Positions 55,982 to 62,833 of a DNA stretch of 64,000 bases are shown here, one piece after another (the first letter of the stretch is position 1; each line of letters begins with the position of its first letter). The position numbers and the translations under genes are program-made. The notes below the pieces were generated by a model, which was given only the letters and a program-made list of their open reading frames with translations, had not been told where the DNA came from and made no database searches. Origin of the DNA: a candidate division WOR-3 bacterium (GTDB lineage Bacteria; SDB-A); NCBI GenBank assembly GCA_016934535.1, contig JAFGSQ010000037.1, positions 8,654 to 72,653 of the forward strand. Reading direction: 5' to 3'.

Positions 55982-58900
55982 ATGAGAATTCTGGTCCCTG
56001 AAATGATATGCGAACGCTATTGTGAAGGCAGAAAAGAAGGTCGTTTCAATTCGTTCGTACTGACTGCCGATATAGCGGGCTTCACTTCCATAACCGAGTC
56101 TCTTTCTGAAAAATCCGGCGCGGGTTCGGAAATAATCTCCGACGCAATAAACAGAATATTCACGCCAGTGATTGATATTATTGATGTTTACGGAGGATTC
56201 GTATCTTCCTTCGCGGGAGATTCTTTTACGTCGCTTTTTCCTGAAAACTCGGTCGGCGTCAAAGAAATTTTGGATGTTTCAGGAAGAATAATAACGTCGC
56301 TTTCCGAAACCGGTGAAATAAAAACAAAATTCGGCGATTTCAAGTTTTCTGTAAAAGTCGGGCTTTCAAGAGGAAGCGTATTCTGGCGAATTATAGAGAG
56401 CCGCAGCTGGGCGACTTTTTTTTTCTACGGAGATCCCCTGAAAAAAAGCAACGATCTTGTCAGAAACTCTTCTCCGGGAGCCGTGGCGCTCGACAGAGCT
56501 CTCGTCGATTCCTGTGGTCTCGTCGCCTTGGACGCCGCCACAGCAGAAGACGGTATCTTTTACGCTAAAAACGCAGTTTCCAGGATAAAAAAGATTGCCA
56601 GTGTGGACGTCAAGAAAAAACCGTTTGATCTTGAAACTGCGCCGATGAAAAGGTTTTTTTCTGAAAACCTTTTAAAGACAAGCGTCTCAGGCGAATTCCG
56701 CGGAGTCATACCATGTTTTATTTTTGTAGAAGAAAACTCAGTCAACGACGAAAATATAGGAAAAATCATTGAAACCGCGTCAAAATATTCGGGTTATTTC
56801 AACAAAATAGACTTCGGGGACAAGGGATGGGTAATTCTTGTCGTTTTCGGCGCTCCGTTGGGTTTGGAAAATATGGCAAAGAGAGCCTGCAACTTCGCCC
56901 TGGACACAATGGACGCTCTCGGAGGAAAAGCCAGGATAGGAATGACCTCCGGCACGGTATACGCCGGTTTCATTGGCAGTGAAAAAAGGTCGGAATACAC
57001 TGTTCTCGGTTCTGTTGTCAATCTTGCGGCGAGGATATCGCAGGTGTCCGGATGGGGCGAGATATCTGTTGATAAAAGCATGATAGGAGACGTCTGCCGC
57101 TATTGCACTGTCGTCGGTGAAAGAAATGAAGTTCTGAAAGGATTTGAAAAAAATGTGATTCGTGTCTGTTCTATTGACAGGGGTAAAACGTTTTCACAGG
57201 GTGAAAATTTCGAAGGTCCTTTCATATCGAGAAGGGATGAGACGGAAAGACTGAAGAAAATACTTTATCCGATGTTCGAAAAACGCTTTGCGGGAGTGGT
57301 TCTGGTGGAAGGATCCGCGGGAGTCGGCAAAACGAGATTTTTGAGACACATCAAAAATATTGTGCTTTCTGAAAGCGATGTGAATTGGTTCAGCATGAAT
57401 TGCGACGACCTTATGGCGAACAGTTTTCATCCGTTTACTGATTTTATAAGAAAGTTCGCAGAGCGGCCGGAATACTGTTCAGACGAAGAAAAAATATCGG
57501 CTTTTGACATGGCGTATGATTCGCTGAAATCGGAATTGAAAGATGAAAATGCGAGATCTGATCTGGAGTTCGGCCGTGTTTTCTTTTACGCTCTTCTCGG
57601 ATTTGAACAGGGGTCTCAGATATATTCTCTGTACGACGCGAAAGCCGTTTATGACAACACGTTAAATTCCCTGAGGAACTTTTTTCGTTCTTACGCTTCG
57701 ATTAAACCGCTCGTCATTGAAATCGAAGACACCAACTGGATCGACACTGACTCGCTCAAACTGCTCAACTACATAATTGCGGACGCAGAGTTCACACCTC
57801 TCTGCGTTCTGTTGTCCTACAGGATTGTTGCGGGTAAAACCGTCCCTCCGTACGAAATACTTTCTGAAAAAATTTATAAAATATCACTGAACTCTTTCGG
57901 AAGGGAAGACTCCCATGCTTATATTTCGGGAAGGCTGAAAGAACTTTCTGGAAACGAAAACTCGGTTCCGGATTATGTCGTGGAAAAGATAATTGATATC
58001 ACCGAAGGTAATCCGCTTTTCATGGAACAGATACTCCTTTTTTTGAAAAACAAGGGCAGTTTGTCCACCGAGAGCAGTTTGGATACTGAAGAAATCGAAT
58101 TTCCGTCCAACATCAATTCACTTATAATTTCAAGATTGGACCTTTTGAAATTCAAGCTGAAGGGTCTGATTAAAGCCGCTTCAGTCCTCGGCAAAGACTT
58201 CGAAACCCTCGTACTCTCAAAGGTGACGGAACTCGGCGACATTTCGCCGTTTCTCGAAGAAGGCGAAAACGAAGCAATATGGGCGCCCCTCTCGGCGAGT
58301 TTTTACGCTTTTTTACACGCGATGATACGAGAGTGCGTTTACCGCATGCAGTTGAAAAAGGATTTAAAATCGCTTCACGAAAAAGCGGGAGAGACGATTG
58401 AGATCGTTTATTCAAGTGATCTCGAAGACAGATTCGAAGAGTTGTCCTATCATTTCGAACACGCGGAAAACGAAGCAAAACGGCTTTATTACCTTTACAA
58501 ATCAGCCGAAAAATTATCTTCAAAATACCGTTATTCTGACGCCTCAGTATATTACGGGAAACTTGTTACCTCGGTGGCTTTTTCCGGAGATAACGCCATT
58601 TTGTCGGATGAAATCAACGATGAAAAGGCCGAAGAGATTGATCGGAAAATGAAACTTGTCGATGCAGACCTGAAATTTGAGTCAGTCCTCATCAGAGCCG
58701 CTGAAATTGAAAGATTTCTTGGAAATTGGCAGAAGGCCGAACAATATTACAGATTTGCCTTGAGTTTATCATCAAAAAAAGGGGACAGTCACTCTCATTC
58801 TTTGGCGCTACGCAACTTGGGCAGGCATCTTTTAAACAAAGGTGAATACAACGAAGCCCAGAAAATACTGAAAGAAGCCGAAAAATATTTTTTAGACAAT

Positions 58901-60412
58901 CACTGCGACAAAGAACTTGCGCAGGTTTACGGAGACCTCGGCTTTTTGATGACAAGTCAGGGAGATTACGCCGGAGCTCTCGAATACTACGAATCACAGA
59001 GGATTATTTACGAAAGGATTTCAGATGAAAGAGGCCTTTCTCAGGTCATGCTCGATCAGGGAGTCGTCTTCTGGAGACAGGGTTTCATGGACAAAGCCAT
59101 GCAGGCTTTCGAGAAACAGCTCGAAATGGCTCAGAGAATTCAGGACAAGAGGCTTTACGCCCGGGCAGTCGGAAACATGGGGCTCGCTTTTGCGATGCAG
59201 GGTAAATACGAGAAAGCGAAGGAATGCCTCGAAGAAAATTTGAAGGTAGTTAAAGAGCTCGGTGACAGGGTGGAACTTTCGAAAACTTACGGCAATCTCG
59301 GAGTTCTCAACAAAGACACCGGAAATCTGACTGAAGCCGAAAGACTTTACAATCTCAAACTATCCGTCGCGAAAGAACTCGGCGATAAAGCCGAGACACA
59401 GCAGGTGACAGCCAACATCGGCCTTCTGAAAATGCAGTTGGGAGAGCTGAAAACGGCACGCAAATATTTCAAGGATTCTCTATCGATGGCGAATTCGCTC
59501 ATGGACGAAAAAGGCAAAGCCTTCATTTTAAGAAGCATGGGACAGCTGTATTACCAGAAAGGGAACTACATCGAAGCCATCGGATATTTCAAAAAAAGCA
59601 AGGACATCTCGGAAGCCATTGGAGAACAGATCGGCGTTTTTTCCTCTCTCGGCAACATCGGAATAGCATACATAGATATGGGTCAGAACAAAAAAGCATT
59701 AAAATTTCTTGAAGAACAACTTCGAGAGGCTAAAAAAACGGGTGTCCAGTGGAATCTTATGTACGCCATGATAAATCTCGGGATAGTGAGCGTAAAAACT
59801 GGTGAAATTGACCTGGCATTAAAATATTTGAAAAAAGCAGAAAATATTGCAAGTGAGCTGAAACACGGCAAATTCGTTAAAGATATACATCTTCTGCAGG
59901 CGGACGCTGAGATTTCCAGAGGAAGGCTGAAACCGGCCTCAAGAATTGTTAACTGTATACTTGAGCTTTCAGATAAAGACGAAGCTGACATCACGGCCCA
60001 GGTCTTGCTGTCGAAGATAACGCGTCTGAAAAAATCATCGCCGTCGGAAAAGAAGAATTCTATTTATCGCTTGGCTCTTTTGTCCGACAGGGAAATGACT
60101 TTAAAAAACAGGGCTGACATCCTTCATGAAATGGCTAAAACTTATTCATCTATTGTCAAAACCGGTGAAGCTGTTTTGCTGGCCAAAGACAAAGAATTTT
60201 TAGAGAGCATAAAAACCATCGCGTCAGCAAAAAAAACGGACGGATCAGCCGAAAATAATCCGGAAAAAGTAGATAAATTTCTTTATTCCTCGGCTCAAAG
60301 ACACTTGAAGGAATTGATCAAGATCCGGCCGACTCGCGACCACATTAAAAGAAGCATGGAGATAAAACGATTTTTGGAAAGGAAAAATAATGCAGTCGGA
60401 AAAAAGAAATGA
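55982..60412 (+). CDS. Soluble-adenylyl-cyclase-like tandem cyclase/ATPase/TPR protein
   Basis: 1476 residues from ATG 55982 (GCGGA 6 bases before it; TTG 55976 is an in-frame alternative). Order: class III cyclase domain 1 (about 20-190), cyclase domain 2 (about 225-385), STAND/AAA ATPase (about 415-700; Walker A GSAGVGKT 444-451, Walker B-like VIEIEDTNW with Asp583), then helical repeats and TPRs (about 850-1400). Domain 1 keeps both metal Asp (Asp30 in TADIAGF, Asp80 in FAGDSF) but not the VNxxxR residues. Domain 2 lacks the Asp pair yet keeps Asn347 and Arg351 (VNLAAR) and Thr340. This matches the split active site of soluble adenylyl cyclase (ADCY10). Ser76 replaces the base-binding Lys. 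A weak extended -10 (TGTGATAAT, 55926-55934) lies upstream. Confidence 0.88.
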
Positions 60413-60934: not shown

Positions 60935-62833
60935 TTGAAAGAAAAAAACAGGTCTACCTCCGATATTTCCGAATTAAATCCCAAAGTACTTGAGCAGAAA
61001 ATTTCAAAAAGCGACGATCCCAAAAAAAAGATTTCTATGCTTATAGAGCTTGTCGCTTACCATGAAAAAAACAGAAATTACCACCTGAGCCTGCAGACTC
61101 TCGACAGGGCTCTGACGATGGCAATCGAAGACAGGAACGACGACGCTCTCGCGACTGTCTATCATATCACGGGGAGAATATATTACAGCATTAAGAACTA
61201 CGAAAAATCCATCGAGAACTACCTTAACGCTTTGACTCTGAGAGAAAGCCTCGACGACCCGGATAAGATATCAGCCACTCTGAATAATCTTTCAATAGTC
61301 TACATAGAAATCCTGAGATACGACAACGCCCTCGAATGTCTTTTCAAGGCGCTGAACTGCAGTGAATACACAGGTGATTACAGAAGCCTTTCCGGTATAT
61401 GCAACAACATAGGAATTCTCTACCTCAGAAGCGGCGATATTGATAAAGCCAACAACTATTTCGAAAAATCGCTTAAAACGATGGAAAATGCAGGCGACGA
61501 TCAAATACTTTCAGACCTTTACATGAACATTGGGACTACGTTGTGCGAGACAAACGATTTCAAAGAATCATTGGAATATTTTGAAAAAAGCATAAAGATA
61601 AAACAAAAAATAAACGACACCAGAGGTCTGTCTTCGGTGATGCTAAATCTCGGGAAAGCTTATCAAGGCATCGGAAATTTTTCAGAATCCCTGAATTTGC
61701 TTAATAAATCTCTCGAAGAAAGAAAAAAAACGGGTGACAAAAAAGATCTTGCAACAATAAATCACGCAATAGGAGCTGTATACGTTGAAATCGGAGACAA
61801 TCAGAAAGCCCGTGATTACTTTGAAAAGGCTTACGCTTATTCATCGGGAATAGACATGCCGTATCACAAAAACGAGATAGTTAAAGACCTTTCTGAAATA
61901 TGCAAGAAACTCGGCGACTTCGACAAAGCGTACAAGCTTTTAATAGAATACTACAAAATTCAGGAAGTGATAAACGACAACGAAAAGAAAACAAAAATAA
62001 TTGACATAGAACTGAACCACGAAATAGACAAGATAGAGAGAGAAAATAAAATCTTCAAAGAAAAAAACCTGGAGCTTGAAAAAGCGAAAAAGAAAATAGA
62101 TCTTCATCAGGTGGAATTGAATAAAGTTTACGAAGAACTTGCAAAGGTGATTCAGGTCAAGGAAAATCTCTTCGGTTTTATTTCCAAAGACCTCAAGGAG
62201 AGCATGGATTCAATAAATTCAGCGATCGAACTGATGTCCGCGAAGAAGAACGAAGACTCCGGAGACAGCTGCAAATACATCAAATCCATAAGCGAAACGG
62301 TAAAAGATTCTCTCGGTTTGATTGAAAGGATAACCAGGCTGTCTCATCTTGAAGAGCCGTCTTTTTCTTTGAAACTCACAAAAAAAGACATCCCGGTCTG
62401 CCTCGAAAAGCATTTTCCGTTGTTTGAAAAGACCGCGCAGAAAAAAAACATTAGTTTAAAGCTTTCGGTAAAAACCGTCCGTGCAGAGGTTTTTATTGAC
62501 GAGTCCGCGTTTATAGAGATAATTGAAAATGTTCTGGAGAACTCCATAAAATACACTGAACCTGGCGGAATTATTGAAATTGAGATCTCGCATAAATCCG
62601 GGAACGCAGTCCTGACGGTTAAAGATAACGGACTCGGGACTCTTTCTGAATACATTCCTTCTATCGGCGAAAAATTTCTTCCGTCTTCGAGAAACGGCAC
62701 GAGGGGAGAAAAAAGCGCGTGGCTGGGTCTTGTCATAGCGAAAAAACTTGTGATCTTTCACAAAGGCAGTATTTCAGTCAGATCAGAAATCAATTCAGGC
62801 ACAGAATTCAGAATACTTCTTCCTCTCGCTTGA
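60935..62833 (+). CDS. TPR protein with degenerate histidine-kinase domain
   Basis: 632 residues from TTG 60935 (GGAAGGG upstream). Residues 30-345 contain about eight TPR motifs, e.g. NNLSIVYIEILRYDNALECL; a coiled coil (about 350-405) leads to a dimerisation-like region and a HATPase domain (about 500-632). In the H-box the phospho-acceptor His is replaced by Lys418 (GFISKDLKESM). The N box keeps Asn536 and the G1 box is DNGLG (564-568), so ATP binding looks preserved; the G2 box is altered (SAWLGLVIAKK). It is probably a sensor that binds ATP but does not phosphorylate a response regulator by the usual route. Confidence 0.82.
   Translation: MKEKNRSTSDISELNPKVLEQKISKSDDPKKKISMLIELVAYHEKNRNYHLSLQTLDRALTMAIEDRNDDALATVYHITGRIYYSIKNYEKSIENYLNALTLRESLDDPDKISATLNNLSIVYIEILRYDNALECLFKALNCSEYTGDYRSLSGICNNIGILYLRSGDIDKANNYFEKSLKTMENAGDDQILSDLYMNIGTTLCETNDFKESLEYFEKSIKIKQKINDTRGLSSVMLNLGKAYQGIGNFSESLNLLNKSLEERKKTGDKKDLATINHAIGAVYVEIGDNQKARDYFEKAYAYSSGIDMPYHKNEIVKDLSEICKKLGDFDKAYKLLIEYYKIQEVINDNEKKTKIIDIELNHEIDKIERENKIFKEKNLELEKAKKKIDLHQVELNKVYEELAKVIQVKENLFGFISKDLKESMDSINSAIELMSAKKNEDSGDSCKYIKSISETVKDSLGLIERITRLSHLEEPSFSLKLTKKDIPVCLEKHFPLFEKTAQKKNISLKLSVKTVRAEVFIDESAFIEIIENVLENSIKYTEPGGIIEIEISHKSGNAVLTVKDNGLGTLSEYIPSIGEKFLPSSRNGTRGEKSAWLGLVIAKKLVIFHKGSISVRSEINSGTEFRILLPLA

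Follow-up and report, generated by a model that had tools for sequence, protein, structure and literature searches.

The window, that is, the whole stretch of 64,000 nucleotides analysed, contained on its forward strand a gene for a protein of the soluble adenylyl cyclase (sAC) type. The open reading frame extended from 55982 to 60412 and encoded 1476 amino acids, counted from the ATG at 55982. The original prediction had given the span as 55982-57230, which holds the cyclase part, but the gene itself ends at 60412. The reading frame and its translation agreed with that prediction, and D30, S76, D80, the LKKSNDLVR stretch (153-161), N347 and R351 were all present. Pfam placed Guanylate_cyc on a portion of the second cyclase domain and also showed AAA_16 and TPR_12, and the ATPase and then the TPR regions were found 3' of the cyclase domains, in an ADCY10-like order as had been proposed. 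ADCY10 produces the messenger cAMP in human sperm. The features of the locus were as follows.

55982..60412, + strand: sAC-type protein with C1, linker, C2, STAND ATPase and TPR array (ORF; Pfam; family profile against ADCY10)
56036..56515, + strand: cyclase domain C1, about residues 19-178, with the metal aspartates D30 and D80, the PPi lysine K125 and a degenerate stretch of 13 residues where VNxxAR is expected (ADCY10 alignment; census of 65 homologues; model)
56207..56209, + strand: Ser76 codon, equivalent to the bicarbonate ligand K95 of ADCY10 and not to the adenine lysine (alignment; roles from PMC12867704)
56450..56452, + strand: Asn157 codon, equivalent to R176 of ADCY10, the bicarbonate switch (alignment; PMC12867704)
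56516..56686, + strand: C1-C2 linker, about residues 179-235, which stops before the conserved GEFR (237-240)
56687..57187, + strand: cyclase domain C2, about residues 236-402, with the adenine contacts K275 and T340, the transition-state residues N347 and R351, F248, and no metal Asp (alignments; census; model)
57200..58516, + strand: STAND-type ATPase, about residues 407-845, with Walker A GSAGVGKT at 57311-57334, an 11-residue Walker B region at 57713-57745 and GNP from 58007 (Pfam AAA_16, E 5e-16; conserved motifs; model)
58700..60000, + strand: TPR array, presumed sensor, about residues 907-1340 with approximate limits (TPR_12 in five stretches; TPR_MalT)
60935..62833, + strand: TPR / HATPase_c neighbour in conserved gene order, given as context (Pfam; gene order kept in L119)

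The likeness of the cyclase core to ADCY10 was seen in both sequence and structure. A PDB sequence search with residues 1-416 returned human ADCY10 as the top match with both domains aligned (E about 1e-17), and the identity was about 21-22%. The profile of 27 relatives matched ADCY10 in one stretch (residues 35-471, E 1.8e-55), while the best single-domain cyclase against the same 27-row profile was CyaB (2.9e-26). The AlphaFold2 model of residues 1-416, built from a 65-sequence alignment and no templates, had a pLDDT of 90.2 and a pTM of 0.90, and a Foldseek search with this model placed human sAC at all ranks from 1 to 24. Superposition on 4clk with VIA-align covered 386 residues at 2.5 Å (Z 39.9); since it spanned model residues 1 to 402, the agreement with ADCY10 extends to both domains and to how they are placed relative to each other. 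Superposition on ADCY10 C1/C2 was the check proposed with the original prediction, which survived it, as the two domains packed as a pseudo-heterodimer. The structural matches that came after human sAC were the membrane cyclase AC9 (Z about 35) and then 6yii from P. aeruginosa (Z 26).

Shared with ADCY10 (4clk, 4usu and others) were the tandem C1-C2 arrangement, the composite site, the packing, the catalytic residues, the N-terminal segment and the linker element. The two proteins are also alike in layout beyond the core, where a P-loop ATPase comes first and then an extended C-terminal region. The window protein differed from ADCY10 in having S76/N157 for K95/R176, in its low identity, in its prokaryotic origin and in its many paralogues. 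CyaC (1wc0), CyaB (3r5g) and Cya2 (2w01) have the class III fold and the C2 motifs in common with the window protein but matched it one domain at a time; these three enzymes are homodimers with two complete sites.

In the linker region, R240 was invariant and F225 and E238 were nearly so, and SELR of ADCY10 aligned at the same place as GEFR. This element bears on whether the two cyclase domains pair within one chain. Active STAND proteins often oligomerise, which would favour pairing of C1 and C2 between chains. However, the monomer model packed C1 on C2 in the ADCY10 arrangement with a pTM of 0.90, and the GEFR/SELR element is common to ADCY10, so we give pairing between chains hardly any weight.

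The functional residues of ADCY10 have been listed as the metal ligands D47 and D99, K144, the adenine lysine K334, and N412 and R416 (Table 1 of PMC12867704), and the adenine role of T405 has been named in PMC12250328. In the alignment these residues corresponded to D30, D80, K125, K275, N347, R351 and T340 (D47 to D30, D99 to D80, K144 to K125, K334 to K275, N412 to N347, R416 to R351 and T405 to T340), all of them identical, and thus every listed catalytic residue was kept in the window protein. C1 carried K154 and D158 at the equivalents of N412 and R416, and C2 carried F248 at the position of the first metal Asp, a placement made by hand against N298 of ADCY10. D280 of C2 belongs to a loop with the sequence FDKG in ADCY10 and is outside the metal ligands listed for that enzyme. 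Each domain alone was thereby incomplete, as first claimed: C1 had the metal aspartates with K154/D158, and C2 had N347/R351 with F248. The residue map and the pseudo-dimer model agreed in giving a single composite site of the ADCY10 kind, which bore out the earlier reading. From this map and model, one active site is predicted at the C1-C2 interface, and the second, pseudo-symmetric pocket, which lacks both residue sets, would be dead.

The composite site was conserved well beyond the window protein. In an alignment of 65 homologues that represent many phyla, D30, D80, G150 and N347 were invariant, R351 and T340 were each kept in 62, and K275 was kept in 56, a count somewhat inflated because that lysine was part of one of the two scan patterns used. 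These homologues do not have full sites in each domain, so the original prediction also survived the second of its own refutation tests. Since both halves were conserved across these homologues and phyla, the split active site is more than chance.

The protein might instead be a pseudo-cyclase without catalytic activity, which binds ATP and does no more than pass on conformational signals. Such a role would fit the match to 6yii, a tandem class III AC-like protein which covers both model domains in one chain and carries the PDB name of an ATP-binding protein, not a cyclase, although it is more distant than ADCY10; several paralogues in the same genomes also lack catalytic residues. Against it, the window copy and its orthologues L066 and L067 had a whole composite site, as did nearly all of the 65 homologues, and the decay was limited to the pseudo-site. 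We therefore regard a dead cyclase as unlikely at this locus. A non-catalytic role is possible within the family, since some paralogues are clearly without catalytic residues.

Ser76 had been taken as the position of the adenine-binding lysine, and a doubt about the substrate or activity had been drawn from it. Neither held: the adenine lysine K334 corresponds to K275, which is kept and lies in the other domain, the base residues K334/T405 are K275/T340, and Ser76 bears on bicarbonate. A substrate other than ATP (GTP, CTP or UTP), whether through Ser76 or as in the Pycsar cyclases, is very improbable, because base recognition would be by the sAC pair K275/T340 while Ser76 belongs to the bicarbonate pocket and not to the base pocket. 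What speaks for such a substrate is a weak PADLOC match to PycC (E 6e-9), but that match spans only a generic class III stretch. A Pycsar cyclase was rejected as a candidate in view of the AC-type base residues, and no Pycsar-like effector family was found among the window proteins scanned, which covered part of the window genes. A change of substrate through Ser76 was likewise rejected, the base lysine being K275.

In human sAC, K95 binds bicarbonate and R176 is the other bicarbonate residue (PMC12867704). Ser76 of the window protein aligned with K95 and N157 with R176, and both are neutral. The same study (PMC12867704) reported that neutralising K95 or R176 greatly lowers the activity of ADCY10, and the lack of both in the window protein, like its low identity to ADCY10, counts against its reading as an active cyclase, although the sea urchin and salmon enzymes, each without one of the two residues, are still active; sea urchin sAC also has Asn at the R176 position. 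The K95/R176 pair is absent from most non-mammalian animal sACs and is a mammalian trait, and in the two enzymes tested, from sea urchin and salmon, control was exerted by pH rather than bicarbonate (PMC12867704, 2026).

Our results showed that the pair was also missing from the bacterial relatives examined, in agreement with the non-mammalian animal enzymes of PMC12867704. The K95 position of the 65 homologues was occupied by S (32), T (20), A (7), G (3), N (2) and I (1). Because one of the two scan patterns behind this set favoured S or A at Ser76, the count was repeated on a less biased set of 56 paralogues from four genomes, collected by whole-protein similarity, in which the position held S in 14, T in 8, V in 8, G in 7 and other residues in the rest. 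The conservation of Ser76, which the original prediction had raised, was thus partial: S or T was commonest among the homologues (52 of 65), but the four-genome paralogues varied. Lysine occurred at this position in 4 of the 56 paralogues, three of them in a degenerate subfamily. Arginine at the R176 position was found in 0 of 65 homologues, where A was most frequent (35), and in 0 of 56 paralogues. Contrary to the expectation that no bacterial protein would have K95, two sequences from two genomes of a further phylum had it, with V or A at 176. These two bacterial sAC-type proteins (L192 and L195) have the lysine in GGEVVKFAGDA and GGDVVKFAGDA, and their motifs are otherwise very ADCY10-like. 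The full pair was seen in no bacterial sequence among those aligned.

ADCY10-type bicarbonate control of the window protein is unlikely on these alignments, since none of the aligned bacterial relatives has R176 and few have K95. Regulation as in mammalian sAC would be in line with the shared architecture, and some sAC-like cyclases of bacteria have been reported to respond to bicarbonate (PMC3085406). The neutral S76/N157 and the residues of the aligned homologues nevertheless speak against it, and in animal sACs the loss of these residues accompanies the loss of the response (PMC12867704), which leaves such regulation with only a small chance of being right. The missing K95/R176 pair puts the window protein outside the mammalian subtype and leaves its family membership untouched, as most non-mammalian animal sACs lack the pair too.

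The model of residues 385-900 had a pLDDT of 84.6 and a pTM of 0.82, and its structural matches were MalT (Z 24.0), the TPR-STAND protein 6mfv (Z 23.7) and Apaf-1 (Z 22.2). The window protein thus has the NB-ARC/MalT-like nucleotide-binding fold of STAND ATPases with Walker A, Walker B and a GxP-type motif, together with superstructure-forming repeats, and the Walker A and GNP motifs were conserved. The fold of the ATPase core is common to the window protein, MalT (8bob), 6mfv and Apaf-1 (3sfz), and the sensor is TPR in 6mfv, by its title, and TPR-like in MalT. The output differs, being DNA binding or oligomer assembly in MalT, 6mfv and Apaf-1 and a cyclase in the window protein. Among orthologues all regions were about equally conserved (52/59/55%). 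Among paralogues the cyclase was better conserved (31-37%) than the C-terminal part (22-27%), and the TPR half was kept least, in a region-by-region comparison whose repeat alignment was noisy. This pattern fits one output with many inputs, as read from the paralogue sequences.

The family was large in the genome from which the window came. Its 2.23 Mb contained 14 proteins with a full C1-C2 core, and besides these a set that had diverged further and a single interrupted copy. The D/D and N/R residues were kept in 11 of these 14, and 8 of the 14 also had the adenine pair (K or R, T or S). In the same census, 13-15 full cores were counted in each of two congeners and in a less closely related genome of the same family. 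Strong matches numbered from 1 to 19 per genome among 44 other genomes from public records, with 10 or more in several lineages; the 44 had been picked for having at least one match, and two of them apparently repeat a congener (G002) and the family member (G003). The same 2.23 Mb genome (L001-L006) had 22 Guanylate_cyc matches, including further class III cyclases besides the 14 of the sAC type. In a divergent sAC-like copy of this genome (L114, C7:55262-56341), an in-frame TAA breaks up the cyclase part. Three congeners share an orthologous subfamily of sAC-like proteins (L113, 492-4226, + strand; L084, 3-1541, - strand; L101, 3-3302, - strand) that has lost the catalytic Arg as well as the first metal Asp, and from its sequences it is apparently a conserved pseudo-cyclase.

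Recent tandem duplication was ruled out as the source of the 14 copies, which fell in separate clades, many with orthologues in two congeners. As they did not group together in the tree and many had these congener orthologues, the copies are old and retained. In the separate-domain tree, C1 of ADCY10 grouped with bacterial C1 (100/100) and C2 with bacterial C2 (96/79), and the ordinary cyclase domains of the same genome stood apart; its outgroup was small, with six rows that came from a single genome and included an identical pair, and the branch of ADCY10 C1 was long. Because each domain grouped with its own counterparts, the split site is most likely ancestral, the fusion and the division of labour being older than the divergence of the human and bacterial proteins. 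In the whole-core tree ADCY10 was placed next to a divergent bacterial row, a position flagged for long-branch attraction, and we therefore make no claim on which bacterial subfamily is closest to ADCY10.

Bacterial sAC homologues with an ATPase domain have been attributed by citing papers to Roelofs and Van Haastert (2002) and to Kobayashi, Buck and Levin (2004), and by those descriptions the domain structure is common to bacterial and eukaryotic sAC. The window protein adds to these known homologues, and the design itself is known. A limited search of open papers found no description of the many-copy family in these lineages or of the family-wide loss of the bicarbonate pair.

The gene order around the cyclase gene was conserved and was kept in L119: amidohydrolase, LD-transpeptidase-like, PGA_cap, VTT, sAC, dCMP deaminase, TPR-HATPase and RmlC-like, of which the amidohydrolase, transpeptidase and RmlC were named by eye and the others by Pfam. 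At the place of the histidine kinase motif (S/A)H-(E/D)-L, the downstream TPR-HATPase_c protein (60935-62833) had SKDLK and its orthologue (L119 7887-9782) SKDIK, so both species have apparently lost the phospho-accepting His. The genome also encoded five cNMP-binding domains, three of them with a phosphate-binding motif of the GE...R-S-A type, and one of those three was on a CRP-like regulator.

We consider it quite probable that the window protein is a member of the sAC lineage with a composite site, in which the STAND-TPR half gates cAMP synthesis and cNMP-binding proteins act as effectors. The order of events is modelled on MalT-like STAND proteins and ADCY10. C1 would give the metal aspartates D30/D80, and C2 the adenine contacts K275/T340 and the transition-state residues N347/R351. 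A ligand or partner would bind the TPR half and switch the STAND ATPase, and this switch would alter the C1-C2 interface and turn cAMP synthesis on or off. The cAMP may then act on CRP-like and other cNMP-binding proteins. By analogy with these systems, the protein is likely a ligand-gated cAMP synthase.

More tentatively, and with doubts that outweigh the case for it, several uncultivated bacterial lineages might operate a cAMP network with many inputs. A dozen or more ancient STAND sensors of the sAC type, each having a TPR input of its own and none dependent on bicarbonate, would then feed a few cNMP receptors, and the bicarbonate-sensing human enzyme would have branched off late from this bacterial family. 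The present analysis corrects how the active site had been interpreted functionally and supplies a large set of bacterial sAC relatives. With this set one can test directly if control by bicarbonate was there from the start or was added late, in eukaryotes and mainly in mammals. The analysis also suggests a bacterial signalling arrangement that would couple cyclase output to STAND-TPR sensors, and some genomes of 2-3 Mb have 10-19 copies of it.
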